NCBI GenBank assembly: GCA_027023475.1
Contig: JALVVJ010000135.1
Coordinates: forward strand, 1-32,199
Source: Flavobacteriales bacterium
Lineage (GTDB): Bacteria > Bacteroidota > Bacteroidia > Flavobacteriales > Flavobacteriaceae
DNA length: 32,199 nt
Direction of reading: 5' to 3'
The notes under the pieces are model-generated. The model was given only the letters and a program-made list of their open reading frames with translations. It had not been told where the DNA came from and ran no database searches. Made by a program: the position numbers and the translations under genes. The stretch's first letter is position 1; each line of letters opens with the position of its first letter. Shown piece by piece: positions 1-31,344 of this stretch.

Positions 1-940
<940 letters not shown>

Positions 941-959
941 TTAGGTTTATTTTTTTTTC

Positions 960-1393
960 GGGCGCCCCGCCGCACACGTTCGTGGCGCCTACGGCGCATC
1001 GGCAGGCGCTTCGGGACGACAGAGCGCCCTCCCGCCTGCCGCCACTCACGTGGCGCCGTCGGGCTGTCCGCTCAAATGCGGCTCGGGTCGCGGCGGTTTG
1101 CTAAGGGCCGGCTGCGGTGTCTCCTCGGTTCCTCGGAGCCTGCTCGCCGGCAGCAAACCAAGCCGCGCCGGCATCGCTTCAAGCATAAAGTATTGGAAAA
1201 GTTGCAGTTATTTTTGTCGAGAACAAAGCCGGCAATCCGAAGGCATAGCCGTAGCTATGGCAAGGATTGTCAATGCCGTTATCGGCAAAAAGAACAAAAC
1301 TTGGTGTGATAATTTCATGCTTGAAGCGATGCCTACCCTTCGCCGCATAACCGCTCCCATCCCTGGCGCTTCTTAACGCGCGATAAATCGCGC
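960..1393 (+). repeat. GC-rich dispersed repeat family 1, copy A (interrupted)
   Basis: This block is nearly identical to 11240-11482 for about 210 bases (starting GGGCGCCCCGCCGCACACG) and shares two fixed boxes with the copies at 15045 and 22032: GGGCTGTCCGCTC followed by AATGCGGCT, and the terminal box CCGCTCCCATCCCTGGCGC. It ends in the palindrome GCGCGATAAATCGCGC, also present in the 22032 copy. Unlike copy B it carries a 164-bp insertion (1170-1333) just before the terminal box. No coding frame is conserved between copies, so I read it as noncoding. Confidence 0.85.
1170..1333. mobile_element. 164-bp MITE-like hairpin element inside repeat copy A
   Basis: Perfect 17-bp terminal inverted repeats, GGCATCGCTTCAAGCAT at 1170-1186 and its complement at 1317-1333, enclose 130 bases that contain a second imperfect hairpin centred near 1250 (CATAGC..GCTATG with GGCAATCC..GGATTGTC). 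At the equivalent place in copy B (near 11448) there is no insertion. No open reading frame is likely to encode a transposase, so this would be non-autonomous. It may alternatively be a structured variable segment of the repeat itself. Confidence 0.55.
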
Positions 1394-1443
1394 TTGAATA
1401 TGGAACACCGAATAATCGATTTAAGATTTCCGATTTGCGTTCT

Positions 1444-1463
1444 CCTACTGCAAACATTGTAGG
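1444..1463. repeat. Short dispersed repeat CCTACTGCAAACATTGTAGG
   Basis: This 20-mer closely resembles three copies at 22287-22306, 22462-22483 and 22661-22680 (consensus CTACTGtAAACATTGAAGG). In both loci it lies 50-70 bases beyond the terminal palindrome of repeat family 1, so it may be the outer edge of that family. Confidence 0.5.
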
Positions 1464-1481
1464 CCGGTTGTTATACAGTAG

Positions 1482-1670
1482 AAGGCGAACTCCGGGCGGG
1501 CGGCAAAGCTATACTACACCGAAGTGGCTTTTATAAAATATGCTCCCGTTTCCTCTGTTCCAAGCAAAAACGGCTTATATGCTACTCCTGCTCAAACAGC
1601 CGTATTTCCGCGATTGATTGCGAAAATAAAAGAAGTGGAAAATGCGACTGAACGGTTAGTGTATGAGTAA
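1482..1670 (+). pseudogene. Possible 3' remnant of an unidentified gene
   Basis: A stretch open for 62 codons with normal-looking composition (for example LYYTEVAFIKYAP and ARLYY-like aromatic start, ending ENATERLVYE) lies between an upstream in-frame stop at 1479 and the stop at 1668-1670. There is no ATG, GTG or TTG in a sensible place. Its stop codon falls inside the left arm of the palindromic element at 1659, which looks like a gene cut by or fused to that element. I do not recognise the family. It could be a chance open frame. Confidence 0.25.
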
Positions 1671-1768
1671 TGGCGGGTTTTTTCGCACTTTTGTTCATTA
1701 TTGAACTAATGTTGATTTTACTCATAATTTGTTCATTGTTAGCACTTTGCCCGCCATTACTTATACAC
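1659..1768. repeat. Large palindromic cassette-boundary element P1
   Basis: Left arm GTGTATGAGTAATGGCGGG (1659-1677) pairs with right arm CCCGCCATTACTTATACAC (1750-1768) at 18 of 19 positions, around a 72-base AT-rich centre. The right 27 bases recur with one mismatch at 3765-3792. The element lies exactly at the truncated 3' end of the Fic gene. The large folded-palindrome layout recalls integron attC sites, but no integrase is visible here. Confidence 0.7.
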
Positions 1769-1772
1769 CTTC

Positions 1773-2126
1773 TTATGCAATGTCTTTTAGTCTTAAAAAT
1801 CCTTGTCGTTTTATCAAATCAAATCCGGTAAAAATTGCTTTTCTGTAATTAATTACTTCTTTTACTTGTGCCGGTTGTTTTCTTTGTGATGCGAGAGCTT
1901 TATATAATTCATCTTGCGTAGTGATGATATTTTCAATTTCCGAACTATCTTTTGCTTCTTGCAATACAACTGCATTTACCAACATTGCTTGATTTGGAAT
2001 TGTTTTTGCTATTCCTTTTAATTCGCCAAGAGATTGAGCTGTTTTACTTAACTGTCTAAGTATTTCAACAGTTTCAACTTTTTCTCTTTCAGGAGGCAAT
2101 TTTTTTAGTTTCTCTATATGTCCCAT
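1773..2126 (-). pseudogene. Fic family protein, N-terminal domain only (truncated)
   Basis: The 117 residues match the N-terminal Fic_N part of Bacteroidota Fic proteins: LPPEREKVETVEILRQL, then ELKGIAKTIPNQAMLVN and QEAKDSSEIENIITT, ending GFLRLKDIA. The SSEIENI segment resembles the conserved (S/T)xxxE(G/N) inhibitory motif region. Complete proteins of this type have about 350-380 residues and carry the catalytic HPFxxGNGR motif, which is absent: translation stops at 1773-1775, five bases from the right arm of palindrome P1. AMPylation activity is therefore not expected. It may be an inert remnant, or a free inhibitory-domain fragment if expressed. Base composition is low-GC like its two neighbours on the same strand. 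Confidence 0.7.
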
Positions 2127-2215
2127 TTTATCCCATATAGTTTAAATATGTCCCAAAAGTATGAAAATTAGTGCATATGTCAAAATAATGGTGTTATTTG
2201 TCCTACATTAAGCAC

Positions 2216-2407
2216 AACGACCCGCTGAACGCAGTTCCGCACTGAGGGCGGTTCTGTGAGCGCTCGCGCTCATCAGAAGTAAAGCCCGCAAGGGCGGGAC
2301 CAAATTGCTTTTAGCATATGTTCCGGCACGTTTTGTTCGATGCCGTCCTTCGGGCGCAAGCCGTTTATCAAAGATACGAAAAAAGCAATTTGGTTTAGCG
2401 GGTCGTT
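2216..2407. repeat. Nested inverted-repeat element P2a
   Basis: AACGACCCGCT (2216-2226) pairs perfectly with 2397-2407, and inside it ACCAAATTGCTTTT (2299-2312) pairs perfectly with 2381-2394. It fills most of the gap between the Fic remnant and the PD40 gene. No credible gene is seen in it. Confidence 0.6.
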
Positions 2408-2498
2408 CAGGCACATTTCCCAAAATACCGGGAGTTTTGCCGAAGGCGAAACCTAGGGATTTTGGTCGCCCGAAGGGCGAAGGTGACTGAACGGTTTA

Positions 2499-2605
2499 AA
2501 TATGGTGCGTTTGGCACTTCAACGCTCCAAATTTTGGGGTTTTCACTATGTATATTTATTGCTATCCTATTCATTATTAACACCATCTGCCAAATGCACT
2601 ATATT
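2499..2605. repeat. Palindromic cassette-boundary element P2b
   Basis: AATATGGTGCGTTTGGC (2499-2515) pairs with GCCAAATGCACTATATT (2589-2605) at 15 of 17 positions around an AT-rich centre. It sits 14 bases beyond the stop of the PD40 lipoprotein gene, in the same position relative to that gene as P1 and P3 have to theirs. Confidence 0.55.
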
Positions 2606-2619
2606 TTTTTGCTTTGTTA

Positions 2620-3648
2620 TTAATCAATTTTTTTTATCCCAACATAATATAAATCAAAATCACCTTTCCCTCCCGGTCTATTTGAAGAAAAAATCATTAA
2701 GTCATTACTAAAATCATATTCTCTTCTTATAATAGGTCGATACTCATCATATTGTGTATTAATTTTATTGCCAAAATTTACAGGGGTTGTCCAACTTCCA
2801 TTAACTTTTACTGAATAATATAAGTCAAATCCACCGTAACCCCCCTCTCTATTAGATGCAAAGACCATAAAATCACCAAGGATAAAAGGGCATTTATCGT
2901 CATAATTTGATGATAAAATTGTATCTTTAATAGGATTTGAATTAGTATTATTTAATATGTCAAGAATATCTTTTGTTTTATCTGTTTCATTATAATATAT
3001 GTTATAAGAACCTTCACGATTAGAGGTAAAGTAAATTCTTGAAGTATCCTTATTAAAAGTCGGATAGGCATCATCAAATTCAGAATTAATAAAATTGACT
3101 TTTTGTGGGGTTGTATAATTTTCATTATCAAGATTATGTGTAAACATTATGTTTTGGTTCCCCTCAATTCCACTTGAATACAAAAAAATATATGTTTCAT
3201 ATCGGTTATTTACATCCGTTCCACTTTGTTTTCTTCCTTTTGGTATTAGATATGGTCCGAATTCATTGGCTGTTGTATTTATTTTTATTAGTGCATTATT
3301 TATATTGTTGTTTTCAACAGCTACATCCAAATCTTCGTTTGTGTTATTATAAATTTTTAAAATACCAGTCGTTTTAGAAAAATCTATTGTCATAAGTTTG
3401 TATAAAATATCATAATTATTCCCGGCACTGTTCCTGTTAGTAGAAAAACATAACGGAAAAGTTTCTCCTAAACTTGGTGCAGTAGCGTTATAATCGTCAT
3501 ACCTTGTATTAAAATCTGTAAGATTTGTAGGTGTATCAGGAAACTTACCCGTAAAATATTTGTATTCATTATCAGGTTTACATGAATGAATCAAGGCAAT
3601 AATTAAAACAAAAATTAATAATTTCTCACATTGTTTAATAGCTTTCAT
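2620..3648 (-). CDS. PD40/TolB-like beta-propeller lipoprotein
   Basis: The product has 342 residues. The start MKAIKQCEKLLIFVLIIALIHSC is a lipoprotein signal peptide with the acylated cysteine at position 23, so it should be membrane-anchored in the envelope. The second half contains repeated PD40 (WD40-like) blades: IYFTSNREGSYNIYYN, MVFASNREGGYGGFDLYYS and MIFSSNRPGGKGDFDLYY, the last at the C terminus. In Bacteroidota such propellers often sit in OmpA-linked envelope proteins; here the propeller stands alone. The gene is strongly AT-rich and sits between palindromes P2b and P3, suggesting it was acquired as a single-gene cassette. Binding partner unknown. Confidence 0.75.
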   Translation of the reverse strand: MKAIKQCEKLLIFVLIIALIHSCKPDNEYKYFTGKFPDTPTNLTDFNTRYDDYNATAPSLGETFPLCFSTNRNSAGNNYDILYKLMTIDFSKTTGILKIYNNTNEDLDVAVENNNINNALIKINTTANEFGPYLIPKGRKQSGTDVNNRYETYIFLYSSGIEGNQNIMFTHNLDNENYTTPQKVNFINSEFDDAYPTFNKDTSRIYFTSNREGSYNIYYNETDKTKDILDILNNTNSNPIKDTILSSNYDDKCPFILGDFMVFASNREGGYGGFDLYYSVKVNGSWTTPVNFGNKINTQYDEYRPIIRREYDFSNDLMIFSSNRPGGKGDFDLYYVGIKKID

Positions 3649-3682
3649 AATGTATAGTTTTTAAATAAGGCCTAACGGTTAT

Positions 3683-3792
3683 GTGTATAAATAGTGGCGG
3701 GATTTTCTGCACTTACTTTCATTTTTGCACTACCGTTTATTTTATTCATATTTATTTCATTTTTAGCACTTCGCCCGCCATTACTTATACAC
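3683..3792. repeat. Large palindromic cassette-boundary element P3
   Basis: Left arm 3683-3701 (GTGTATAAATAGTGGCGGG) pairs with right arm 3774-3792 (CCCGCCATTACTTATACAC) with two mismatches. Just outside are CCTAAC (3671-3676) and GTTAGC (3797-3802), an RYYYAAC/GTTRRRY-like pair as in integron attC sites, although the match is imperfect. It separates the PD40 gene from the ATPase gene. The right arm is identical to that of P1. Confidence 0.7.
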
Positions 3793-3806
3793 AATGTTAG
3801 CGGTAG

Positions 3807-5078
3807 TTATTCTTTTTTTGTTAGCCAGGGTCTTGCTTTTACATAAGTAGCGAAAAGGCTATCTTTAAACCTGTAATATCGTTCTCGTATTTTTACTATT
3901 TCAGCTCCATAATCATTAGACACTAAATGTCCTACATACTGACTTGGATTATCGACATCATAATCTATAGCTATTTTATATGCATCTCTTGTTGAAATCT
4001 CTCCATCTTTTTGAATTACTTCCGCTAATGATTTTAATACAGCTTCACGCTGATGAGATGAAGCTACTGCTTTCTTGTATCTACCTTCTAATACAGGGTC
4101 AGCTTCTTTTTCTGCGATATCTTTCAATGTTTTTAAAATATATTCTTCATCTATCTCATAGATACCTTCATTATATGCAGTTTTTAATGCTTCTTTACCT
4201 ATTAAATGTATTATATAAGGATGTCCATTTGCTAATGAAATTAACTTATCACGAGCACTTTTGTTAAATTTAATAAAACCGTTAATTGAATTTTCTGCTG
4301 TATCAATTATTTCATTGAGTTCATTAGGCTTCATAGGTGGTAGATTTAAAACACTACCAGCAAATAATCTATCCGAACTTTCGTGTTCCTTCATTAAGTT
4401 TTGTATATCTTGTGCAACTCCAACAATGCAAAATTTGACACCAGGCACATTTGTTGCTAGTGATTTTAAGAGTTTTGCAAAACCAGAAGGATCTTCTATT
4501 TGATCAAATTCATCAATTACTATTAGTATTCCATCTTTTGCAACTTTAGTTTTTAAAATTTCACTCAAGACATTTTGAAAAACAACATCAATCTCGTGAA
4601 CTTGGATTGCCTTTGAGTATTGAGTTTCGTCAACAATTTCTGAACTTAATTTTGCTATTTTAACATCAAATCCACCTTGTATTTTCCCTAATTCTTTATA
4701 TGCATTTGGAATATCATAAATCCAATCATACAAACAATCTTTTGTTGTTAATAACCTTATTATAAGGTCAGATATTGTTTTCACACTATTGCCACAAGCT
4801 AAATAAATAGTCAAAAAATCCAACTTTTCATCAAAAGGAATATTTAATTTTTCTAATAATGAATTATCTCCTTCGGAAAGATTAATTATTTGTCTTGCTA
4901 GAGAACTTTTCCCTATACCGCGGCCACCTACAATTGCAATGTTTGAACCTTTCGTAATTAATCCAATAAATGCATCATTTACATATTCAGTTCTCCCAGC
5001 AAATTTTTTTGCATCACTTATTTCTTGTGCTGGTGTAAAAGCATTTATGACTTCACTAATTGATATTTTTTTACTCAT
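3807..5078 (-). CDS. AAA/ORC-like P-loop ATPase
   Basis: The 423-residue soluble protein has Walker A GGRGIGKSSL at residues 51-60 and Walker B ILIVIDEFDQIED at 184-196. The lid region LNLPPMKPNELNEII is followed by a C-terminal winged-helix-like part ending RYYRFKDSLFATYVKARPWL, which is the layout of Cdc6/ORC-related or STAND-like AAA ATPases (ATPase_2 / AAA_16 type). These proteins use ATP to switch or remodel partners, some in defence; the partner is not encoded next to it. It stands alone, is low-GC, ends four bases from the GTTAGC edge of palindrome P3, and has its own promoter at 5125-5154. A role in phage defence is possible but only inferred. Confidence 0.75.
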   Translation of the reverse strand: MSKKISISEVINAFTPAQEISDAKKFAGRTEYVNDAFIGLITKGSNIAIVGGRGIGKSSLARQIINLSEGDNSLLEKLNIPFDEKLDFLTIYLACGNSVKTISDLIIRLLTTKDCLYDWIYDIPNAYKELGKIQGGFDVKIAKLSSEIVDETQYSKAIQVHEIDVVFQNVLSEILKTKVAKDGILIVIDEFDQIEDPSGFAKLLKSLATNVPGVKFCIVGVAQDIQNLMKEHESSDRLFAGSVLNLPPMKPNELNEIIDTAENSINGFIKFNKSARDKLISLANGHPYIIHLIGKEALKTAYNEGIYEIDEEYILKTLKDIAEKEADPVLEGRYKKAVASSHQREAVLKSLAEVIQKDGEISTRDAYKIAIDYDVDNPSQYVGHLVSNDYGAEIVKIRERYYRFKDSLFATYVKARPWLTKKE

Positions 5079-5124
5079 TTATTTTTTAATTTCTTTTAAT
5101 TACCGCCAACGATTGTATACATTA

Positions 5125-5154
5125 CAAAGTTACCTATATTTTTCATTTATGCAA
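5125..5154 (-). promoter_or_regulatory. Promoter of the AAA ATPase gene
   Basis: On the reverse strand TTG (5154-5152), a 19-base spacer and TAACTTTG (5132-5125) match the Bacteroidota -33 TTTG / -7 TAnnTTTG pattern. The expected transcript start leaves about 40 bases before the ATG at 5078. Confidence 0.6.
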
Positions 5155-5239
5155 CAATTTTGTTGTTTTATTTCCCTTATTTTGTTGTGTATAGTTACTT
5201 TTTTTGTTTTTCCTCTCCAAAAATAATAAAAAATTTCCT

Positions 5240-5740
5240 TATTTCCTGTCATATCCCGCGCCAGCGGGCGCAGCGGTATCCTTGCCCGGCAGCCGGTGAA
5301 AGTTTTTGTGCCGGCGGCGGGGGCTCGCAGCGCAAGAGACCACGGCGCCGGCCTTACAAAAACCGCCGGATGGAGGGCAAGATAATAGCGGAGCACGCGA
5401 CGGCAACGCGTGAGGAACGGCCGGCGCAAGCCGGTCTTGCAAGTAACGCTTGCAAACCGGTCCCGCCTCGTGAATGTGCTGCGGCGCAAAGCGGCGCTAC
5501 TACATGAACGAGTGCGGGAAGCGCTCCGTCGTCGCGAAGCGGCGGCCGTTGCCCCGCCGCGGCGCGTATCAGCGCGCCGGGCGGATGGCCGGAAGTAAAT
5601 GTTTGAAAATCAAGCGAAAATCCCCGCCCCGCGGCGAAGCCGCGGGGCGGGGCGACGAAAATCCGGTTCAACATCCGGCCATCCGCAGCGGGCATCCGCC
5701 CGCCGGCGGGGCACCGAACGCGATTGCCGGGGCGCCCTGA
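5240..5740. repeat. GC-rich intergenic repeat block with several hairpins
   Basis: This 500-base stretch holds no credible gene. At 5290-5365 it contains, in reverse orientation, the core of the repeat at 22032 (shared GGGGGCTCGCAGCGCAAGAG followed by ACCAC). At 5429-5461 CCGGT-CTTGCAAG..CTTGCAA-ACCGG forms a hairpin. The strongest hairpin is annotated separately at 5622-5652. The segment GGCCGGAAGTAA near 5587 recurs near 15107 in copy C. Confidence 0.7.
5622..5652. repeat. Perfect 14-bp GC hairpin within a larger cruciform
   Basis: CCCCGCCCCGCGGC (5622-5635), loop GAA, and the exact complement at 5639-5652. Outer arms GGATGGCCGGA (from 5582) and TCCGGCCATCC (near 5673-5683) extend the palindrome to about 100 bases. 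There is no T-tract, so it is not a typical intrinsic terminator. Confidence 0.65.
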
Positions 5741-5793
5741 AATGTATCGTCCTCAACAAAACATAAAATCCGAATTTATTGACTATCGTCATA

Positions 5794-5823
5794 TTTTGAA
5801 CCGGTCAAAACTTGCTATATTTG
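5794..5823 (+). promoter_or_regulatory. Promoter of the efflux operon
   Basis: TTTTG (5794-5798), a 17-base spacer and TATATTTG (5816-5823) fit the Bacteroidota -33/-7 consensus. The -7 box overlaps the palindromic operator at 5820-5845, and the first gene starts at 5856. Confidence 0.65.
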
Positions 5824-5845
5824 TAAGTAAATACTCACTTACAAA
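5820..5845. promoter_or_regulatory. TetR-type operator palindrome
   Basis: TTTGTAAGT (5820-5828), 8-base spacer, ACTTACAAA (5837-5845): perfect 9-bp arms. GTAAGTA..TACTTAC-like palindromes are typical targets of TetR/AcrR regulators, and the operon ends with a TetR gene (10639-11226). Because it overlaps the -7 box and the likely transcription start, bound repressor would block the promoter. Confidence 0.7.
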
Positions 5846-5855
5846 ATCTGTTTCC

Positions 5856-6773
5856 ATGAAACGACTACATCATATTTTTGTTTTGCTGCTGATTTTGCTT
5901 GGCTTGGGTAAGCTTTCGGCCCAGGAACAACGGGACAGGGCTGCTGAAATGCAACCGGATGATTTTTTTATTTCCACCTATAAGTTTCACCCGCAACTCT
6001 TGGCAAAAAAACACTGGTTAATAGATTTTTCGACCCATATTCCCAAGTTTTTCAAGTATTACAACCCCAAAGCGGGCAAAATCGCACCCAAAATGCCCGT
6101 GGTGGTGCTCAATGAGGCCTATTTCAATGCGCACATATTATATGGTGTAAGTCCCAAAATAAACCTGTTTGTCAATCTGCCTTTTGTGAGCTTGCATCAT
6201 TATTCGCCCATGATGTTTCAAAAAGGGGTGGGCTTTGGCGATGTGGAAACCGGATTTGTATTTGGCAACCTGTTGAAAGGAAATCATTATCTCACGGTCG
6301 AAGCGCAAATCAATTGGCCCACGGGTATTTATTTGCTTAAAAAACAGGTTTTGAACACCGGAATGGGTGCTTTCGGCCTTCAAGCCGGGCTAAGCGGACT
6401 GGAAAACCTGCAAAACAAATCCGGTGCTTGGCAATTGGCCTACCATGCTTATTTCGACTACCTTATCAGTTTGGATAAAATCCAAAAAGGCCCTGCTGCG
6501 GGCGCAACCCTTTTGTTCCGCAAACCCTTTCACACTGCTTACGGCTATTTCGGCCTGGAAAATGCTTGGGATTTTCAATACCGTTCGGCGTTCAAGGAAG
6601 GGCCCAAAACTTTGCCCATGACAGGATTGATGCAGTTCGACCTGAGCATCGGCGGATGGTATGAATTCTTGAAGCATTGGTATTTGCGTATGGCCGTGCC
6701 CTATACGCTTTACCAAAACAAAACTTTTTTGACCAAATACAGCGTGGTCTTTCAGTTGGATTATCAATTCTAA
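5856..6773 (+). CDS. Outer-membrane beta-barrel protein of the efflux operon
   Basis: I chose the ATG at 5856 because it is the first downstream of the promoter and operator and begins a clean signal peptide (MKRLHHIFVLLLILLGLGKLSAQ). Upstream in-frame ATGs would lie before the promoter. The 305-residue product is rich in alternating aromatic and hydrophobic strands (GVSPKINLFVNLPFVSL, GFGDVETGFVFGNLL) and ends in a phenylalanine after VVFQLDYQF, a usual beta-signal for outer-membrane insertion. It resembles the PF13557 'MetA-pathway of phenol degradation' type of transporter-like barrels. Being first in a TetR-controlled efflux operon, it may help small hydrophobic compounds cross the outer membrane. 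Function not proven by sequence. Confidence 0.75.
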   Translation: MKRLHHIFVLLLILLGLGKLSAQEQRDRAAEMQPDDFFISTYKFHPQLLAKKHWLIDFSTHIPKFFKYYNPKAGKIAPKMPVVVLNEAYFNAHILYGVSPKINLFVNLPFVSLHHYSPMMFQKGVGFGDVETGFVFGNLLKGNHYLTVEAQINWPTGIYLLKKQVLNTGMGAFGLQAGLSGLENLQNKSGAWQLAYHAYFDYLISLDKIQKGPAAGATLLFRKPFHTAYGYFGLENAWDFQYRSAFKEGPKTLPMTGLMQFDLSIGGWYEFLKHWYLRMAVPYTLYQNKTFLTKYSVVFQLDYQF

Positions 6774-6794
6774 CCAAAAATAAAAAACAGCATT

Positions 6795-7616
6795 ATGAAA
6801 AAATTCTATACCAAAACGGTTTTGTTTTTGCTTAGCGGCATCGTGTCGGTGGCGTGTAGCGATATTAAATTGACCAACGACAAAAAAACCGAATCCGAAT
6901 TTCAGGGCTATATCGAAACCACCCAAGTGAATGTTACCACCCGGATGCCCGGTCGCATTGTGGACATCCTGGTGGACGAAGGCGACCATGTGAAGCAAGG
7001 CGATACGGTGGCTCTGCTCGATACGCGCGAAATTTTGGCCAACCGCAAAGCCCTGGTGGCCAAATTGCACAACGTGGCCGTAAACAAACGCCGTTTGGAA
7101 CATCTCTACCGCGTGGGCGCCGTGCCCAAACAAAAATTGGACGAAGTTACCACCGGTTACCAAATGCTTCAAGCCAAAATCCAGGCCTTGGACACGCGCA
7201 TTGCCGATATGGTCATCAAAGCACCTATGGATGGCGTGATTACACTCAAAGTGTTGGAAAAAAATCAAATGATGCCACCCGGCATGCCCGTGGTCATCGA
7301 AACCGACCCCCAAGGCACCTGGGCCCGGTTTAGCATTCCCGAAACCTATTTGGATCAATTGCACCTGGGCGACCAAGTCAGTATGCAAACCAATGCGGGC
7401 CATTTGACCTTAAAAGGTAAAATCATCCAAATTGTGCCCATGGCCAATTTTGCCACACACACGCCCACCACGGCCCGCGACGAACGCGACGTGCGTACCT
7501 TTGATGTCAAAATCCTGATTTTGGATCATCAAAAAGATGTCAAACCCGGCATGTCGGTCTTTTTGAAACTCAAATCACCGGACGCATCCCACAAAGACCA
7601 AACTTCAAAGTCTTGA
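6795..7616 (+). CDS. HlyD/EmrA-type periplasmic adaptor lipoprotein
   Basis: 273 residues. The start MKKFYTKTVLFLLSGIVSVAC has a lipobox with cysteine 21. The lipoyl-like half-motif GRIVDILVDEGDHVKQGDTVALLDT precedes a short coiled-coil hairpin (residues about 75-125) and the second half-motif IKAPMDGVITLKVLEKNQMMPPGMPVV, then a beta-barrel domain. This is the membrane-fusion protein that links an inner-membrane transporter to a TolC channel. It lies 21 bases after the barrel gene and 4 bases before the permease gene, all on the plus strand. The short hairpin and lipid anchor suit an ABC-type rather than a long EmrA-type system. Confidence 0.9.
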   Translation: MKKFYTKTVLFLLSGIVSVACSDIKLTNDKKTESEFQGYIETTQVNVTTRMPGRIVDILVDEGDHVKQGDTVALLDTREILANRKALVAKLHNVAVNKRRLEHLYRVGAVPKQKLDEVTTGYQMLQAKIQALDTRIADMVIKAPMDGVITLKVLEKNQMMPPGMPVVIETDPQGTWARFSIPETYLDQLHLGDQVSMQTNAGHLTLKGKIIQIVPMANFATHTPTTARDERDVRTFDVKILILDHQKDVKPGMSVFLKLKSPDASHKDQTSKS

Positions 7617-10638: not shown

Positions 10639-11226
10639 ATGAACCGGAAGACCACCCACGACCGCAAGGAAGAAATCAAACAAGCGGTGCTCAAAATCAT
10701 TAAGGAATCGGGCATCAAGGCCGTTTCCACCAAACGATTGGCCGCCGAAATCGGCTTGTCGGAAGGGGCTATTTTCCGGCATTTCGAGAAAAAAAGCGAC
10801 ATCATTCGTTCCATTGTGGACGATGTGGCCCAGGATTTGATAGGCAATTTGAAGGAAATTGCCGAAAGTGATTTGCCGCCCCGGGAAAAGTTGGAAAAAT
10901 ATTTGTGCACCACCATCAATTATTTGTTGGAAAACAACGGTATCACTATCCTTTTGCTTTCCGAGGCCACCTATAACAATGATAGTGGCATGCTGGACAA
11001 GTTACGGTATATTTTTAACGCCCAACGGCGTTATTTCGAGCAAATTATACGTCAGGGCATCGACCTGGGCATTTGGCGCCCCGACGTAAAACTCAACGAC
11101 GTATCTTTGCTCTACATGGGCATTCCCATCACGTTGAACACCAGTATTGTATTGGGAATCTATCCCTTCGACCGCAGGCATTTTTGCAAGGACATGATAG
11201 GGCAGATCGAGCGCTTGATTAGTTAA
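10639..11226 (+). CDS. TetR/AcrR family transcriptional repressor
   Basis: 195 residues from the ATG at 10639 (the TTG at 10618 lies inside the putative -7 box and is a poor start). The N-terminal helix-turn-helix is clear: AVSTKRLAAEIGLSEGAIFRHFEKKSDII at residues 29-57 (read in parts, AVSTKRLAAEIGLSEG then AIFRHFEKKSDI). The ligand-binding C-terminal region is helical and not further assignable. As last gene of the cluster, with a perfect 9+8+9 palindrome at the operon promoter, it is the likely local repressor of the efflux genes, released when the exported compound binds. Confidence 0.9.
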   Translation: MNRKTTHDRKEEIKQAVLKIIKESGIKAVSTKRLAAEIGLSEGAIFRHFEKKSDIIRSIVDDVAQDLIGNLKEIAESDLPPREKLEKYLCTTINYLLENNGITILLLSEATYNNDSGMLDKLRYIFNAQRRYFEQIIRQGIDLGIWRPDVKLNDVSLLYMGIPITLNTSIVLGIYPFDRRHFCKDMIGQIERLIS

Positions 11227-11239
11227 AGTTTAGGTTTTT

Positions 11240-11482
11240 GGGCGCCCCGCCGCACACGTTCGTGGCGCCTACGGCGCATCGGCAGGCGCTTCGGGACGAC
11301 AGAGCGCCCTCCCGCCTGCCGCCACTCACGTGGCGCCGTCGGGCTGTCCGCTCGAATGCGGCTTGGGCCGCGGCGGTTTGCTAAGGGCCGGCTGCGGTGT
11401 CTCCTCGGTTCCTCGAAGCCTGCTCGCCGGCAGCAAACCATGCCGCGCCCCCACGCCGCATAACCGCTCCCATCCCTGGCGC
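11240..11482 (+). repeat. GC-rich dispersed repeat family 1, copy B (uninterrupted)
   Basis: About 210 bases from GGGCGCCCCGCCGCACACG are almost identical to 960-1169, then the block goes directly to the terminal box CCGCTCCCATCCCTGGCGC without the 164-bp insertion of copy A. It separates the efflux operon from the convergent sprE cluster. No gene is supported in it. Confidence 0.85.
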
Positions 11483-11519
11483 GGATAAGGTGTTTTTTGC
11501 GCAACCGGTCGTCTGATAA

Positions 11520-14969: not shown

Positions 14970-15044
14970 ACGCGCGGCTATGTGGCAATAACGTTTTGCG
15001 GTTCAATTTAGTATTTTTCGGGCAAACGGATTTTTTTGTTTTTT

Positions 15045-15406
15045 GGGCGCCCCGGCGCCCGGTTTCGGGGTCCCGCCGGCGGGCGAACGCCCGCGGCGGC
15101 CGGCCGGAAGTAAGTTCTTGTTAATATAACGACATTCGTCCCGTTCCGGCTGCCCGGCGCCTACGGCGCCGCGGCGGGGTATCGTCCGTTGCTTCAAGCG
15201 GCGGAGCGCTTTCGCACCGGCCGGCCCGAAATCCGGCGCCGTCGGGCTGTCCGCTCCAATGCGGCTTGGGCAGTGCCGTGGTTTTGCGCGGGCTGCGCCT
15301 ACGCTTGCTCGCGCCCGCCCGTGCGTGGGGCTTCCTTCGGTCGCCTCCGCCGGGCGGAAAACCATCGGCCTGCCCTGCACCGCATAACCGCTCCCATCCC
15401 TGGCGC
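15045..15406 (+). repeat. GC-rich dispersed repeat family 1, copy C (divergent)
   Basis: It begins GGGCGCCCCGGCGCCCGG, contains GGGCTGTCCGCTC..AATGCGGCTTGGGC near 15246-15273 and ends with CCGCTCCCATCCCTGGCGC at 15406. The interior differs from copies A and B, and includes a GGCCGGAAGTAA segment shared with 5587. It fills the space between sprE and the thioredoxin-like gene; no gene is supported in it. Confidence 0.8.
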
Positions 15407-15480
15407 GTTTTTCTTGCCGCAAACATATCCGTGTTGAAAGAAAAAGAAAGTTTCGCCTGCCGGTTTGCGGAACCAATGAA

Positions 15481-21938: not shown

Positions 21939-22031
21939 CCCAGGTCATTGTTGGGAAAAGAAAGTTACGGATTTTACGGCTTATGAAAAAGGATGCGTTT
22001 TGGTGTTTTGAAATATTTTTGATTGGTTTTT

Positions 22032-22233
22032 GGGCGCCTCCCGCACATTGCTTGCGCAATGTCGGGACCGGGCTGTCCGCTCAAATGCGGCTTGGGCAAG
22101 GCCGGTTTTTGTAAAGCCGCCGGCGTGGTCTCTTGCGCTGCGAGCCCCCGCCACCGGAACAAAAAATTCGGCCTGCCCCACGCCGCATAACCGCTCCCAT
22201 CCCTGGCGCTTTTTGGCGCGCGATAAATCGCGC
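22032..22233 (+). repeat. GC-rich dispersed repeat family 1, copy D
   Basis: It begins GGGCGCCTCCCGCACATTG, then has GGGCTGTCCGCTCAAATGCG, ends with CCGCTCCCATCCCTGGCGC (to 22209) and the palindrome GCGCGATAAATCGCGC also seen in copy A. The middle (GTGGTCTCTTGCGCTGCGAG, 22127-22146) recurs in reverse at 5320-5343. Confidence 0.85.
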
Positions 22234-22310
22234 GTCCACAATGGAACATCCGGCCTTGGTTGGAATATCCGGGTTTATGATTGTCCGCTACTGTAAACAT
22301 TGAAGGAAAA

Positions 22311-25375: not shown

Positions 25376-25768
25376 TCACTCTAATAAATCATCAGGAATA
25401 GGGATATTATTTTTTTTTGCAAGATTAATAATTGTGTCTTTGTAAGTTGTTGCATACCCTTTTTTTAAATCTTCTACTAATTCTTCCAGTGTCCCAATAA
25501 ATAATTTTGCGGGATTTTTTTCTAAATATTCGTTCAAAATTTTTATGGCATCGGCAAACCGTTCAGTTTCTACATATGCAATATACAAACCTAAATAATC
25601 TAATTCATTATTTGTCCCTATTGACAAAACTTTTTCCAAATAAGAAATTCCTTCTGCAAATCTATTTTCATCGATCAATAATAAACCGATTAGTTCCAAA
25701 GCTTTTTTATTACTTGGGTTTTTTATGAGTATGGCTTTTAATTTTTTAATTTTTTCTTTTTTTGTCAC
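25376..25768 (-). CDS. TPR-like putative immunity protein for RHS module 4
   Basis: 130 residues from a GTG at 25768 that overlaps the RHS stop codon (GTGA, 4-base overlap), which indicates translational coupling. The protein is helical with TPR-like spacing: NPSNKKALELIGLLLIDENR, FAEGISYLEKVLSIGTNNE and FADAIKILNEYLEKNPAK. Position and coupling are as expected for the immunity partner of a polymorphic toxin; no family-specific immunity motif is recognised. Strongly AT-rich. Confidence 0.65.
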   Translation of the reverse strand: MTKKEKIKKLKAILIKNPSNKKALELIGLLLIDENRFAEGISYLEKVLSIGTNNELDYLGLYIAYVETERFADAIKILNEYLEKNPAKLFIGTLEELVEDLKKGYATTYKDTIINLAKKNNIPIPDDLLE

Positions 25769-27093
25769 TGTTGCGGATTTTGAGGTGGGTTAATAACAGG
25801 TTTGTTTTGTGGAATAGCATCTCTCAATCTTTGGGTTTGTTGTTGATACTGTTGTTCGACACTAACAGGTTGAGTAGAATAAATATCGTTGATATCATTC
25901 CAATCTATTGGGCCATTTAATCGTTTTAAAGCATGTTTGAAATTTTGCACGCTTTTATCTTTGCTAAATATTCTATTTTGTTTAGTGCCAGGTTTTTTGA
26001 ATTTTTTTGCGGCCTGCTGTGCTTTTTCAAGACCATCTAGTTGATTCTTTGAACGTTCAACATCGTTTCCTGTTTTTACGCGATCTTTTTTTAATTGACG
26101 CAGATTATCATTATTTGTAGATTGTGATTCATTTTGATTAGCATTACCGGTATTTGAATCATTGGTTGTTGTGTCCGATGTGGGACTTTCAGTATTTGTT
26201 GTTGCGGGTTCAGTTTCGGTTTCGGCACCTAAATCTGTATTTGGTGATACCTCAGGGGTTGATTCAGTCGATGTCTCATTAATATTTGGAACTTGTTCCC
26301 CAAAATTTGTTTCTTCAAATCCTTCAAGATTAAAACCTCTGGTTGCATCACTAAATGTAACAAAATCATACCACCCGAAAAATTCTAATTCCAACCCCTC
26401 CAACTCTCTTCCCAAGCCCAATTTATTTTCTTGGAAAGCATACGTGGAATTGTAGGGATATTTAGCCGCCAACGGATCCACATTAAAAAACCTTCCTATC
26501 GCATAATCATAATTCCTGTACTTAAAACTATCCCAGCCCAGGTCTAAATCTTCCTGGCGTTCTTGGCCTTGGAACTTGTACTTATACCTCCCCGCCTGCG
26601 CCTGCACCGTAAAAATAAAATCTTGTTCCTTGTCGTATTTTAAGTCTTCTTTTTCTTCGTTGTAGCCCTTGTGCAAAAGCCCAAAGGGATAGTAATTATG
26701 CTCGCGCAACACGGTTAAATTTCCGTTTTCTTTTGTAATGTTTTGCCGGATGTTGCCCAAGTGGTCGGTGTGGTTGTAAACATATTGAAACTTAAACTCG
26801 TTATCAATGCCATCCGGATACACCGCACTCACATAGCCCTCGTCCGTGCCAATGAACATGAGTTTCCAGTCGTATTTAATGTGGTTGTTTTCCTTAAACT
26901 CGTATTGCATGCCAAAGATATAGGCCGTGCCCTTGGCTTCTTCCGCCGCACCATCCTTGGAAAACTTATACCATTTGTTGCCCAAGGCGTCGTAAATAAA
27001 CCTTATTTCTCCGGGGCCTATTCTCACCCTTGTAGGTATATTGGCGTGATTATAGGCAATATACGAAATTTCTTTGTTTTGGTCGGCTTTCAT
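25765..27093 (-). CDS. RHS core fragment with predicted C-terminal toxin (module 4)
   Basis: 442 residues from the ATG at 27093 (MKADQNKEISYIAYNHANIP); a GTG at 27117 is less likely. Residues 1-230 are the end of an RHS repeat core: FIYDALGNKWYKFSKDG, NHTDHLGNIRQNITKENG, YYPFGLLHKGYNEEKED, GRYKYKFQGQERQEDLDL and AIGRFFNVDPLA, closing with ELEGLE. After that point the sequence is unique: a Thr/Ser/Asn-rich linker of about 80 residues, then a lysine-rich helical domain (KSVQNFKHALKRLNGPIDWN) and a Gln/Pro-rich end. The core encapsulates, the C-terminal part would be the toxic effector; its activity is not recognisable. No signal peptide and too short to form an RHS shell, so it is probably not functional as it stands. 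Confidence 0.75.
   Translation of the reverse strand: MKADQNKEISYIAYNHANIPTRVRIGPGEIRFIYDALGNKWYKFSKDGAAEEAKGTAYIFGMQYEFKENNHIKYDWKLMFIGTDEGYVSAVYPDGIDNEFKFQYVYNHTDHLGNIRQNITKENGNLTVLREHNYYPFGLLHKGYNEEKEDLKYDKEQDFIFTVQAQAGRYKYKFQGQERQEDLDLGWDSFKYRNYDYAIGRFFNVDPLAAKYPYNSTYAFQENKLGLGRELEGLELEFFGWYDFVTFSDATRGFNLEGFEETNFGEQVPNINETSTESTPEVSPNTDLGAETETEPATTNTESPTSDTTTNDSNTGNANQNESQSTNNDNLRQLKKDRVKTGNDVERSKNQLDGLEKAQQAAKKFKKPGTKQNRIFSKDKSVQNFKHALKRLNGPIDWNDINDIYSTQPVSVEQQYQQQTQRLRDAIPQNKPVINPPQNPQQ
26390..27081 (-). repeat. RHS core repeat, copy 4
   Basis: About 690 bases with near-identity to 28460-29131, 30226-30905 and (partly) 31997-32199. It runs from the codons for EISYIAYNHAN to those for LEGLE; similarity stops sharply on both sides. 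Confidence 0.85.
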
Positions 27094-27155
27094 GTTGTGC
27101 CGGGGGCGGGAGACCACGGCGGGGCGGGGATATTAAATTTATGGTATGCCATTCT

Positions 27156-27686
27156 TTAATGATTGCATAATCTAATTCCTTTTTCTGGGTTTACAGGTTT
27201 TTCTGTTTGATAACAGGCCAATTCATAGATATGATTTTTAAAATCCAATTTACGATTTAATTTTTTTTCAAAATAATTTTTCATTTCAGGTTTTATTTCA
27301 TACATATGATAAAGATTATTATCACCCGATATTAGATTATCCCCGATTATTTGATATAATTCTTTTAATGGAAATTTTTTTTCGGATAGAACCATTTGAT
27401 CAATTTGCTTTCCTGTTGTATTTTCATATACTTCAATTACTCTAATAACATTAAATTGACAATCTTCATTTATGTGATTTTTAGATAATATTATTTCATT
27501 TCTTTTTTTTAGAAAACGAATAGCTTTATACACGGAAATTATTAGCAAAAAAACAATACTAATTAGGACTCTATAAAAAGTGGCAACTCTCCAAGGTGAG
27601 TGCCATATTGACCAATTTGCCAAAACAGCAAGTGCAACAAAAAGGAATATTCGTAAGTAAACTTGGTATTTTAATTTTTGGTTCAT
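27156..27686 (-). CDS. Two-helix membrane protein, putative immunity for RHS module 3
   Basis: 176 residues. The start codon shares a base with the RHS stop (TAATG). Two transmembrane helices near the N terminus (VYLRIFLFVALAVLANWSIW and FYRVLISIVFLLIISVYKAI) are followed by a soluble cytoplasmic domain (QFNVIRVIEVYENTTGKQ, LKELYQIIGDNLISGDNN). Membrane-bound immunity proteins usually guard against toxins that attack or cross the inner membrane. Family not recognised. AT-rich like the other immunity genes. Confidence 0.65.
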   Translation of the reverse strand: MNQKLKYQVYLRIFLFVALAVLANWSIWHSPWRVATFYRVLISIVFLLIISVYKAIRFLKKRNEIILSKNHINEDCQFNVIRVIEVYENTTGKQIDQMVLSEKKFPLKELYQIIGDNLISGDNNLYHMYEIKPEMKNYFEKKLNRKLDFKNHIYELACYQTEKPVNPEKGIRLCNH

Positions 27687-29110
27687 TAATTACTATTGTT
27701 TGTAGAATCATTATAATAAATATAACTATTTCGAAAAGTCGAATAAGTGCCATATGCCCCAGAAACATTCAATACGGCATTTTGGGCTTTTAACATAGTA
27801 TTGTATGTCCTTATACTGTTTCTATATATTTCGGCTTTTTTGGTCAGAGTCATTCCCTCACCTGTTAATCTAGTAATGGCATTCCATGATCGTGAAGCCC
27901 TATATGCATTTGCACTCATTCCAATTGTTGATGCAGCGCCTTCGAACAATAAAGATTCAGGAGATGCAAATCCCATTAAGGCACTTGAAATCACAGGATA
28001 TTGATTTGCGCCACCATAATAACCGGACATAACAGGTTCATGAAGATAAAATCCGATTTGAAATTCTCTCTCACGCATTTCCTGTTCGTATAAATAACTA
28101 TAATAATTGCTCAAAATTACATCATCATCAGTCATTTGTTTCAACATTACAGGTGATTGATTTTGTGTATTATTACCAGAGAATATGCCATAATCCTCCG
28201 AGCGAACAGTATTATTAGTTGTATTTGCTGGCGGTTCTGTTGTCTCTGTACAGCTATCGGAGCATTGCTCATCGCAAGCATCATTAGATAGTGTATCCGA
28301 GGTTATTGTAACTGGATCTAAATTAATTGTTTCTATATTTTCTTCTTGACTAGTAGTTGAGCTGTTAGTACTTATAGTTGTGTTGCTTGTGTTAGATCCA
28401 GAATTCATATTATTCAATATCTCCTCATCCCGTACTCGCATCCATACATCCACACCACTCTCCAAACCTTCAATTTCCGGCGACCAAACGGGTTTATTAC
28501 CTGCAAACTGATACACTGTCATATACGGAAACTTCTCCGCCAACGGATCCACATTAAAAAACCTTCCTATGGCATAATCATAATTTCTGTACTTAAAACT
28601 ATCCCAGCCCAGGTCTAAATCCTCCTGGCGTTCCTGGCCTTGGAATTTATACTTATACCTCCCCGCCTGGGCTTGCACCGTAAAAATAAAATCCTGCTCC
28701 TTGTCGTATTTTAGGTCTTCTTTTTCTTCGTTGTAACCGCGGTGGAGCAGGCCGAAGGGATAGTAATTATGCTCGCGCAAAACGGTCAAGTTTCCATTCT
28801 CGCGGGTAATGTTTTGACGGATGTTGCCCAAGTGGTCGGTGTGGTTGTACACGTACTGGAACTTAAACTCGTTATCAATGCCATCCGGATACACCGCACT
28901 CACATAGCCCTCGTCCGTGCCAATGAACATCAGTTTCCACTTGTATTGGATATGGTTGTTTTCCTTAAACTCGTATTGCATGCCAAAGATATACGCCGTG
29001 CCTTTGGCTTCGTCCATGGCACCATCCTTGGAAAACTTATACCATTTATTGCCCAAGGCGTCGTAAATAAATTCTATATCACCTCTTCGCATACTTACGT
29101 GCGTTGGCAT
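27686..29110 (-). CDS. RHS core fragment with predicted C-terminal toxin (module 3)
   Basis: 474 residues from the ATG at 29110 (MPTHVSMRRGDIEFIYDALG). The RHS core ends IEGLE near residue 218. The C-terminal part has a long Asn/Thr/Ser linker containing the cysteine cluster DACDEQCSDSCTE, then a helical region (DVILSNYYSYLYEQEMRERE) and a Gly/Ala/Ser-rich domain (ALMGFASPESLLFEGAAST, NAVLNVSGAYGTYSTFRN). The Gly/Ala-rich end next to a membrane-type immunity gene would suit a pore-forming toxin, but this is inference. No start signals precede the ATG; the upstream frame reads IAYNHAN back to a stop at 29132. Confidence 0.75.
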   Translation of the reverse strand: MPTHVSMRRGDIEFIYDALGNKWYKFSKDGAMDEAKGTAYIFGMQYEFKENNHIQYKWKLMFIGTDEGYVSAVYPDGIDNEFKFQYVYNHTDHLGNIRQNITRENGNLTVLREHNYYPFGLLHRGYNEEKEDLKYDKEQDFIFTVQAQAGRYKYKFQGQERQEDLDLGWDSFKYRNYDYAIGRFFNVDPLAEKFPYMTVYQFAGNKPVWSPEIEGLESGVDVWMRVRDEEILNNMNSGSNTSNTTISTNSSTTSQEENIETINLDPVTITSDTLSNDACDEQCSDSCTETTEPPANTTNNTVRSEDYGIFSGNNTQNQSPVMLKQMTDDDVILSNYYSYLYEQEMREREFQIGFYLHEPVMSGYYGGANQYPVISSALMGFASPESLLFEGAASTIGMSANAYRASRSWNAITRLTGEGMTLTKKAEIYRNSIRTYNTMLKAQNAVLNVSGAYGTYSTFRNSYIYYNDSTNNSN

Positions 29111-29131
29111 ATTGGCGTGGTTATAGGCAAT
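28460..29131 (-). repeat. RHS core repeat, copy 3
   Basis: Shares the core of copies 2 and 4. It starts at the codons for IAYNHANM, shortly after the stop of the immunity gene at 29141, and ends at IEGLE; it has a slightly different last segment (YQFAGNKPVWSPEIEGLE). Confidence 0.85.
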
Positions 29132-29140
29132 TTATAAATT

Positions 29141-29596
29141 TTATTTTGAAACAATTAAATGAACATATATGACCCATATCAATACTTTTCCAAATATGAT
29201 AAAAAACGAATAATCTGAATAAGTAAATGCTGCCTTGTAAGTTTGGATTAATCTCAAAGCCGTGGAGTCTAATTGATTTTTTATTTTAGGAATATCTTGT
29301 ATTATGTCTGAATTAATAACTTTTGGATCACCAAGAAGTGATTCCAGGGATTTCTTGTATTTATTATAAAGCTCAGGGTAATGTTCATAAAGATAGTTTC
29401 CTACATATTTAGAATACAAACCATACGCAAATCCTACAATTCCGAACAAAAGAAAATCAACATATATAAAATAATAAAATTTATAATTATAAAAACTATA
29501 AATATATAAAATTCCACCTACTATGGATAGAGCCACAAATATGGATTTCAAGTTATCTGATGTAAGAAAAATTTGAATTAATTCCTTAATTTTCAT
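29141..29596 (-). CDS. Membrane protein, putative immunity for RHS module 2
   Basis: 151 residues from the ATG at 29596, which overlaps the RHS stop by 11 bases (ATGAAAATTAA). Helices: SIFVALSIVGGILYIYSFYN, YFIYVDFLLFGIVGFAYGLY and, at the C terminus, FFIIFGKVLIWVIYVHLIV. A charged soluble loop lies between (YPELYNKYKKSLESLLGDPK). Three membrane helices suggest protection against a membrane-acting toxin. No named family recognised. Confidence 0.65.
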   Translation of the reverse strand: MKIKELIQIFLTSDNLKSIFVALSIVGGILYIYSFYNYKFYYFIYVDFLLFGIVGFAYGLYSKYVGNYLYEHYPELYNKYKKSLESLLGDPKVINSDIIQDIPKIKNQLDSTALRLIQTYKAAFTYSDYSFFIIFGKVLIWVIYVHLIVSK

Positions 29597-30875
29597 TGTC
29601 TTGATTTTGGTCATCATCGTCATCATCGGATTTTATTTTTTTTATTTCTTCTCTAATCATAGATAGAGCTTTGTCATATTTTGAAATTGATTGAATTTTT
29701 TCATCAATTTTGTGTTGCAATTCTTTTTGTTCTTCCTTGTCTTCCGATTTGTTTTTTTGATCAACTAAATCAGCCAATTCTGTTTTTTGTTTTTCAATTA
29801 TTTTGGTTAGTACATTTTCTGCTGAAGTTAAGTGATCTAAAAATTCTGACACCTTAGCTTTATCATCAGACATAATTGTATAAGTGTAAAACCCCTCAGC
29901 AGAAACTCCATTAGACTTTAAACCAATACCCCTAAAACCATATACACCAACATGACCGGAAAAAGAATAAGAAATTCCAAAACCTGACACAACTCCTTCT
30001 CCCCAACTTACACCAGCATCAAAACCTGACCCCGCCGCGTCATATACTGATTCCATCCAGGGATAGAATGTTACACTTAAACCATATGTTGCATCCATTG
30101 ATGTTGATCCACCCGCACTCAAAACACCGACGATTTTAACACCATCGGGCCCAATGGCAATACCTGTTTCCGTAGCCATTGCACCATAAACAGATAAGGT
30201 AGCTCTTTTAGTAACAATGACAACCTCCAACCCCTCCAATTCCACACCATCCACCACTCTGTTCTCACTAAAATTATACACACCGTTGTAAGGAAACTTC
30301 TCCGCCAACGGATCCACATTAAAGAAACGCCCAATGGCATAATCATAATTCCGGTACTTAAAACTATCCCAGCCCAAATTCAAATCCTCCTGGCGTTCCT
30401 GCCCCTGGAATTTATACTTATACCTCCCCGCCTGGGCCTGCACCGTAAAAATAAAATCTTGTTCCTTGTCATACTTTAAATCCTCTTTTTCTTCGTTGTA
30501 ACCGCGGTGGAGTAGGCCAAAAGGATAGTAATTATGCTCGCGCAAAACGGTTAAGCGGCCGTTCTCGCGGGTAATGTTTTGGCGGATGTTTCCTAAGTGG
30601 TCGGTGTGGTTGTACACATACTGGAACTTAAACTCGTTATCTATCCCTTCCGGATAAACCGCACTCACATAGCCCTCGTCGGTGCCAATGAACATCAGTT
30701 TCCAGTCGTATTGGATATAATCGTTGTATTTGAATTCGTACTGCATGCCAAAGATATAGGCGGTACCGTGTTTTTCATCACGTTGGTAATCGCCTACGCG
30801 TTTGTACCACTTGTTGCCAAGGGCATCGTAGGTAAACAAAACTTCGCCGTTGTTCATTTGTACATGCGTTGGCAT
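29586..30875 (-). CDS. RHS core fragment with predicted C-terminal toxin (module 2)
   Basis: 429 residues from the ATG at 30875 (MPTHVQMNNGEVLFTYDALG). The core ends VVDGVELEGLE near residue 219. The C-terminal domain first has a Gly/Ser-rich, strand-like region (MATETGIAIGPDGVKIVGVL, GVSWGEGVVSGFGISYSFSG, GFRGIGLKSNGVSAEGFYTY), then an 80-residue charged coiled coil (LTKIIEKQKTELADLVDQKN), and finally a six-aspartate tract before QNQDNEN. The order resembles membrane-inserting proteins with an acidic tail; with a three-helix immunity partner a pore-former is plausible. I know no named family with this layout. Confidence 0.75.
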   Translation of the reverse strand: MPTHVQMNNGEVLFTYDALGNKWYKRVGDYQRDEKHGTAYIFGMQYEFKYNDYIQYDWKLMFIGTDEGYVSAVYPEGIDNEFKFQYVYNHTDHLGNIRQNITRENGRLTVLREHNYYPFGLLHRGYNEEKEDLKYDKEQDFIFTVQAQAGRYKYKFQGQERQEDLNLGWDSFKYRNYDYAIGRFFNVDPLAEKFPYNGVYNFSENRVVDGVELEGLEVVIVTKRATLSVYGAMATETGIAIGPDGVKIVGVLSAGGSTSMDATYGLSVTFYPWMESVYDAAGSGFDAGVSWGEGVVSGFGISYSFSGHVGVYGFRGIGLKSNGVSAEGFYTYTIMSDDKAKVSEFLDHLTSAENVLTKIIEKQKTELADLVDQKNKSEDKEEQKELQHKIDEKIQSISKYDKALSMIREEIKKIKSDDDDDDQNQDNEN

Positions 30876-30905
30876 ATTGGCGTGGTTGTAAGCAATATAC
30901 GAAAT
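30226..30905 (-). repeat. RHS core repeat, copy 2
   Basis: Runs from the codons for ISYIAYNHAN, directly after the stop codon of the immunity gene at 30906, to ELEGLE. Its last 100 bases are almost identical to those of copy 1 (FPYNGVYNFSENRVVD), a tighter relation than to copies 3 and 4. Confidence 0.85.
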
Positions 30906-31343: not shown

Positions 31344-31344
31344 T

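Follow-up and report, generated by a model that had tools for sequence, protein, structure and literature searches.

Hairpin-bearing gene cassettes in a Flavobacteriales genome point to an integron-like gene-capture system of Bacteroidota

Results

AT-rich genes with palindromic sites at their 3′ ends

Positions 1–32,199 of contig JALVVJ010000135.1 from a Flavobacteriales genome (assembly GCA_027023475.1, family Flavobacteriaceae), hereafter the window, were analysed, and the region 1653–5109 very probably consists of three gene cassettes and one cassette without an open reading frame (ORF), all of an integron-like system of Bacteroidota. The three genes, of 117, 342, and 423 aa, are AT-rich and lie on the minus strand; GC content is about 0.29–0.36 over most of them and 0.43 near 2001–2500, and mostly 0.44–0.56 in the adjoining intervals. 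A first-pass annotation, made from the letters of this stretch, had placed large palindromes at the 3′ ends of such genes, and both the palindromes and their placement were recovered: the 117-aa gene ends at palindrome P1, the 423-aa gene at P3, and behind the 342-aa gene lies a further site of the same kind with different arm letters (type B, 2492–2618). P1 (arms 1659–1677/1750–1768, 95% complementary) and P3 (arms 3682–3701/3774–3793, 90% complementary) are both inverted repeats of about 110 nt, with 72 nt between the arms and 80% identity across 117 nt. The arms of P2 were also found, at 2216–2230/2393–2407 and 2299–2322/2371–2394. A count of 19-nt inverted repeats (at most two mismatches, spacing 30–119, shifted registers included) gave five in 1001–5200 vs. 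one in 20 pooled block shuffles; an Rfam search across 1–7000 returned no match at gathering scores.

The edges CCTAAC/GTTAGC of P3, noted earlier as resembling integron attC cores, are present. On the gene (minus) strand P3 reads CGCTAAC-ATT-GTGTATAAGTAATGGCGGG-loop-CCCGCCACTATTTATACAC-ATAACC-GTTAGGC, and the general site, which stands at the 3′ end of a gene, reads xxxxAAC-spacer-stem-loop-stem-NNACC-G|TT on that strand. The likeness to integrons, whose R″ and R′ boxes carry AAC and GTT and whose crossover falls at G|TT, extends to the palindromic site with an unpaired spacer and a variable loop. The predicted features are as follows.

5110–5205, minus strand: adjoins cassette 1 on its left and is probably the right portion of a further site, with the end ..GTATACAATC-G|TT; it resembles the sequence preceding the cassette start in locus L083
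3676–5109, minus strand: cassette 1, a STAND-type ATPase gene (ORF 3807–5078; nSTAND1 match) with site P3; predicted crossover G|TT between 5110 and 5109
3676–3808, minus strand: P3, type A site; R″ ACTACCGCTAAC, 19-nt arms, right core G|TTAGGC, sole A.C mismatch at nt 15 after AAC
2492–3675, minus strand: cassette 2, a PD40 gene (ORF 2620–3648; PD40 match) with the type B site
2492–2618, minus strand: type B site; arms AATATAGTGCATTTGGCA / TGCCAAACGCACCATATT, R″ eroded
2218–2491, minus strand: ORF-less cassette, whose site is the P2 palindrome, atypical in that AAC abuts the stem without a spacer
1653–2217, minus strand: cassette 3, a Fic gene remnant (ORF 1773–2126, Fic_N domain only) with site P1
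1653–1770, minus strand: P1, type A site; R″ eroded (AAG instead of AAC), sole A.C mismatch at nt 10

Cassette starts match the R″ boxes of their own sites

An integron cassette begins with the TT.. of its own site, and its start must therefore be complementary to its own R″. The start of cassette 1, GTTGGCGGTAATTAA, agrees with the reverse complement of its own R″ (GTTAGCGGTAGTTAT) at 12/15 positions, a score equalled by none of 28 foreign R″ boxes. The ORF-less cassette agrees with its own R″ at 11/13, and copies of it were found on contigs C131 (one whole, one split by an assembly gap) and C174 (partial); the segment 2218–2491 with P2 is a separate unit. Upstream of the P2 copy in locus L091 (G000:C131:23000-32830, minus strand) lies a very short site, ACACAACATTGTGTATGAGCAATGC-TTC-GCACTGCTCATACACATAACCG, which suggests that the long loop is dispensable. 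For cassette 3, the start matches the R″ of a longer copy of the Fic cassette in genome G166 at 13/15; about 0.7 kb of that copy is absent from the window, homology between the two stops at 2213, no more than 5 nt from the predicted crossover, and the left neighbour in G166 is a different one.

The same comparison was made across 42 elements, three of which were excluded for too little upstream DNA. Among the remaining 39, retained even where R″ is eroded or misread (L080, L089, L107 at 482, and P1), the best upstream start (G|TT+N7) matches the element's own R″ at at least 9/12 in 13, as compared with 29/1357 foreign-R″ controls. At four two-site loci (L098, L099, L107, and L115) the right flank of the first site resembles, by eye, the R″ of the second site and not its own, although the ungapped scan scores some of these low. 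Cassettes whose 5′ start would pair with the R″ box of their own 3′ site, with the crossover predicted at G|TT, are therefore found as they are in integrons, though not every cassette of the window is among them.

Transcription terminators, or insertions resembling miniature inverted-repeat transposable elements, behind stable genes could also account for the position at gene 3′ ends, and strong hairpins would be possible. However, the complementarity between start and R″ spans whole genes and homology between genomes stops within 5 nt of G|TT, and we regard this explanation as very improbable.

Sites of the same type occur in MAGs labelled with several phyla

The window's own assembly (2.29 Mb, 197 contigs, 95% complete) contains six matches to P1, one of them partial, and the P1/P3-type arm was found in two of 149 genomes of the family, the own genome included. 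A scan of species genomes with the right arm located type A sites in 25 stretches, where they stand behind genes, bearing out the earlier impression that similar palindromes exist in other Bacteroidota. The metagenome-assembled genomes (MAGs) concerned are labelled Flavobacteriales, Bacteroidales, Saprospiraceae, Cytophagaceae, Maribacter, Melioribacteraceae, Calditrichia, WOR-3, Desulfurellales, Nautiliaceae, Hydrogenothermaceae, and Thiotrichaceae. Labels of short contigs may reflect misbinning; long contigs with type A sites carry the labels WOR-3 (168 kb), Saprospiraceae (127 kb), Bacteroidales (102 kb), and Bacteroidota (164 kb). Many of the host MAGs presumably derive from vent metagenomes, judging by their accession series. 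Conservation of type A sites stops at AACC-G|TT on the right and near AAC on the left. A right flank GTTCAGKYRCA.. is common to type A sites on different contigs and MAGs (L001, L002, L028, L029, L083, L085, and L094); the sites may favour this sequence as a target, or a cassette that they have in common may begin with it. The arm had no match among the viral contigs searched, nor was there one among the phages; a plasmid search with P3 returned one record, the 404-kb plasmid pPP2 of Persicobacter psychrovividus.

A tyrosine recombinase heads the cassette array of pPP2

In pPP2, about 100 kb of one strand, running from the record origin down to roughly 303 kb, is taken up by successive cassettes with the signature G|TT-N7-A .. 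C-N7′-AAC. Starts with an exact N7 match and the A/C pair number 62 in these 105 kb vs. three in the remaining 300 kb, and are preceded by CC (53) or AC (9); at a threshold of at least 9/10 there are 53 distinct starts vs. nine with shuffled starts. The 62 exact cassettes comprise 41 distinct heads, 15 of which recur two to four times (36 copies). Within each of these 15 recurring types, copies are set apart by the site on their left, by the cassette that comes next, or by both; the cassette that comes next was called by a simple pattern and is illegible for some copies. Since whole cassettes recur with other neighbours, an origin as terminators or insertions behind stable genes is contradicted for this array; stable synteny, which the first-pass annotation had named as an outcome that would tell against gene capture, was seen neither here nor for the differently flanked Fic cassette of G166.

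At the head of the array, across the record origin, lies a gene for a 379-residue tyrosine recombinase. Persicobacter sp. JZB09 encodes a relative (54.7%) with one cassette start behind it, recognised by eye and missed by the exact scan, its R″ ending in AAT.

Recombinase-headed arrays across Bacteroidia contain the site types of the window

Relatives of the pPP2 recombinase at E ≤ 1e-65 are present in 77 of 395 Bacteroidia genomes, the own genome not being among them; among the hosts, G282 and G032 belong to the window's own family and have genomes of a single contig. Of the 22 best matches, 20 were taken; G797 and G580, both near a contig end, were excluded. A cassette start follows the recombinase in 14 of the 20 loci: nine exact starts at 45–97 bp, two with one mismatch at 51–52 bp, and three exact ones farther away. 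Over the 289 kb of these loci, 52 signature starts fall on the recombinase strand and five on the opposite strand (shuffles, about 6.4 on both), while ten loci of the integron integrase IntI (142 kb) have none. The first start 45–97 bp behind the gene in 11/20 loci is consistent with an attI-like site beside the recombinase gene, where the array begins.

One such array contains the window's two site types, A and B. On contig C41 of the Bacteroidales MAG G161, a single strand carries a recombinase (384 aa, 419 bits), the first crossover, and then three cassettes: DNA methyltransferase genes with a type B site, a GIY-YIG protein with another site type, and one ending in a type A site. Their starts agree with R″ at 9, 10, and 9 leading letters, of which the exact scan passes the middle one only. 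Type B arms are identical in the window, L086, L096, and G161 behind the recombinase, with one change in pPP2. In locus L242 (3173–8730) cassettes comprise several genes and lie between two sites each: DNA methyltransferase genes resembling a restriction-modification set in one, and in another a set that includes a GIY-YIG protein from the candidate defence family PDC-S14.

The first-pass annotation had proposed looking for a tyrosine recombinase in site-bearing genomes. This expectation held in part: a strong match is present in G161, G159, G157, G162, G164, and G165 among 21 type A hosts, and no such recombinase was found in the window's own genome (95% complete), where the best match is Xer-like at 139.5 bits. 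This agrees with the earlier remark that no integrase lies nearby; the recombinase of the arrays elsewhere is not an IntI.

The recombinase is XerA-like and distinct from IntI

The pPP2 recombinase combines Phage_int_SAM_4 and Phage_integrase domains, as integron recombinases do, with about 100 N-terminal residues that have no Pfam match. Scored on its own, the pPP2 protein reaches 226.1 bits against NF040815 (XerA-like; cut-off 220) and 198.3 bits in two stretches against TIGR02249, below the cut-off of 265. The nearest solved chains are XerC/XerA-like (4a8e, 5hxy) and IntI4 (2a3v, in two stretches). It thus resembles XerA-like and XerC/D enzymes (NF040815; 4a8e, 5hxy, 1a0p) in score and nearest structures, and differs from them in the N-terminal extension and in the cassettes behind its gene. 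pPP2-type recombinases and IntI separate at 100/99 in a tree with L127 left out, with no root given and a very long XerD branch. The distance from GxRxxE to HxLRH is 91–96 residues in 22 recombinases of the pPP2 family, not all with a visible array beside them, vs. 133 in 19 IntI (21 loci, one without an ORF by the filter and one without a measurable distance). The integron-specific insertion (I2) is therefore absent. The system is integron-like in its apparent working, yet no member by a definition that rests on IntI. Further differences from integrons and superintegrons (IntI, attI, attC), with which it shares rows of mostly single-gene cassettes in one orientation, are that, in the loci where cassettes follow the gene, the array stands on the recombinase's own strand, that R box complementarity extends up to 10 nt plus an A.C pair, and that mismatches may take the place of extrahelical bases.

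Clusters of attC sites lacking integron integrases (CALIN) are defined by two or more attC sites found by covariance model with no IntI nearby. The window resembles them in having cassettes and sites and no integrase gene found in its genome, and the sites could accordingly be classical attC, the work of a classical IntI that has since disappeared or operates in trans. This would fit the AAC/GTT cores, the one-gene cassettes, and the single orientation, and IntI was found in 84 of 296 genomes of a phylum sample and in one type A host MAG. However, none of 149 family genomes, the own one included, has an IntI above the cut-off, and only one of the 84 carriers belongs to the window's class. The ten IntI loci lack the signature, and across 80 of the 84 carriers together the right-arm motif was matched exactly once, with near-matches, by eye, about as common as for the reversed pattern. 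Since, in addition, the arrays are headed by a recombinase other than IntI, we consider placement by IntI improbable; the sites of the window, judged here apart from attC covariance scoring, would differ from CALIN in belonging to a non-IntI system. IntI was accordingly rejected as partner of the sites, given the ten loci without signature and the near absence of the right arm from IntI genomes. A finder for near-perfect stems returned few or no sites in IntI loci, but is too strict for bulged attC and hence uninformative on attC. The Calditrichia MAG G155 encodes a lone classical IntI (G155:C326:84-1022, L090; 402 bits) and has a type A site on another contig; no right arm resembling type A was found up to 12 kb from the IntI.

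Mismatches at fixed stem positions may mark one strand

Sixty-eight distinct sites, taken from 13 sources and picked by ungapped stem score, have 48 different left arms of 18 nt and keep their pairing with several pair types at most stem positions. Counted after AAC, an A.C mismatch stands at nt 10 in 46/68 sites and at nt 15 in 59/65; P1 retains the former only and P3 the latter only. Mismatch totals are A.C 118, C.A 16, T.G 6, and G.T 4, under a stem score that weighed all four alike. Among 42 type A rows, one of which is wrongly oriented (L107 at 482) and some misaligned (L094, for example), A.C stands at the same two stem positions in 32 and 39, and a joint count of 85 is made up of 80 A.C and five C.A. 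In pPP2 an additional A.C occurs at R box position 11 in 62 of 145 exact pairs; 41 of the remaining exact pairs, G/A, are all copies of a single 11-mer, which forms the inner stem of a site that recurs. Spacers are mostly 3 nt on the left and 5–6 nt on the right and loop length varies, as would be expected of an unpaired central spacer and variable terminal structure of attC type. TAnnTTTG, which we take to be a promoter motif, occurs in site loops on the gene strand in 6/68 and on the other strand in 8/68, with 3.0 in shuffled loops.

Folding of single strands, a check that the first-pass annotation had suggested, favours the strand opposite to the genes in 61/68 array sites with DNA and 60/68 with RNA parameters; among the 42 type A rows it is favoured in 32 and 38. 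Strand choice in classical attC sites rests chiefly on extrahelical bases (PMC2727003). Ungapped pairing fits the 68 sites with A.C instead of extrahelical bases, in a selection that would miss bulged sites, and strand choice may here work through mismatches that turn into wobble pairs.

The same cassettes and recombinase could instead work by ordinary double-strand recombination, the hairpins being a by-product of R and L boxes arranged as inverted recombinase-binding repeats. Xer enzymes use double strands and the recombinase lacks the I2 held necessary for folded attC (PMC7790495); the attI-like palindromes, too, could be paired binding boxes. On the other hand, double strands would have no use for a bias towards A.C or for one strand folding better than the other (61/68). 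A loop of about 70–150 nt between the arms is also unlike an Xer core site. We consider this alternative possible, though unlikely.

Discussion

Taken together, these results make it highly likely that the cassettes and the XerA-like recombinase form an integron-like gene-capture system of Bacteroidota. A tyrosine recombinase of XerA-like type, extended at its N terminus and lacking I2, would cut between G and TT in the right core of a cassette site. The cut site would be joined to an attI-like site directly behind the recombinase gene or to another cassette site; cassettes would thereby enter, leave, and reshuffle, always in one orientation. A.C mismatches of the gene strand correspond to T.G wobble pairs on its complement, and would in this way mark the strand that folds. 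At the level of sequence this is supported by the boundaries, the complementarity of starts and R″, the fixed A.C positions despite differing arm letters, the recombinase-headed arrays, the cassettes that recur beside other neighbours, and the presence of the window's two site types in one such array. The pPP2-type recombinase presumably performs the reaction, and folding energies suggest the folded other strand as its substrate. The earlier proposal of gene capture by folded attC-like palindromes is in this sense supported, by the AAC/GTT cores, the starts that match their own boxes (13/39 vs. 29/1357), and the arrays.

Several results weigh against this system. Recombination is inferred from sequence, and 26/39 elements fall below 9/12 in the comparison of start and R″. 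Within the window, the start of cassette 2 (PD40) failed that comparison, its agreement amounting to GTTA plus scattered letters, and the start of cassette 3 (Fic) fails against the window's own eroded R″. Six of the 20 recombinase loci lack an exact cassette downstream: L203, L205, L216, and L220 end within 370 bp and L214 within 2.6 kb, and L219 has none in 7.6 kb. A palindrome ahead of the first crossover beats all 50 shuffles in only 8/20 loci, with one more (L204) by eye. A strong recombinase match is found in only 6/21 type A hosts; the copies of G162, G164, and G165 carry stop codons, those of G157 and G162 lie on the strand opposite to the type A site, and those of G159, G164, and G165 are on another contig than the site.

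The window looks like a decaying set, because its R″ boxes are eroded and the Fic gene is truncated. With two of its three gene cassettes failing the start comparison on their own sequence, and a genome without such a recombinase, it has the look of a decayed outpost; we infer that its cassettes derive from recombinase-headed arrays and now decay in the absence of the enzyme.

The I2 domain is described as necessary for cassette capture, conferring single-strand recombination, and found in no other protein (PMC7790495), and integron searches require the IntI-specific domain (PMC9668308). Arrays of the pPP2 kind would therefore be missed as integrons. The data point to an overlooked integron-like gene-capture system in Bacteroidota, of which we found no account in the open-access PMC literature, nor any paper there on an integron in Persicobacter. 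On balance we lean slightly towards a second integron lineage with its home in Bacteroidota, in which an Xer-like recombinase without I2 acts on a single strand marked by T.G wobbles rather than extrahelical bases, attI is hairpin-like, and cassettes have spread to distant phyla, notably at hydrothermal vents. Should this mechanism prove right, a large pool of cassettes has so far been overlooked in a major phylum, its cargo including candidate defence genes, those for restriction-modification among them, and the origin of integrons from Xer-like enzymes becomes directly testable.

Other features of the window

A GC-rich intergenic repeat at 954–1463 (ORF motif RARDGSGYA) has similar motifs at about 11223–11504, 15003–15476, and 21974–22300, and recurs on other contigs of the own genome (L092 6687–7193, L094 4096–4511). 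On the minus strand of 25376–32154, four ORFs have a common core (..YNHTDHLGNIRQN..RFFNVDPLA..) and differing C-terminal ends, with a small ORF near each. A Pfam search gave a weak Pre-toxin TG match in one ORF only, and the row looks like Rhs-type alternative tips with possible immunity genes.

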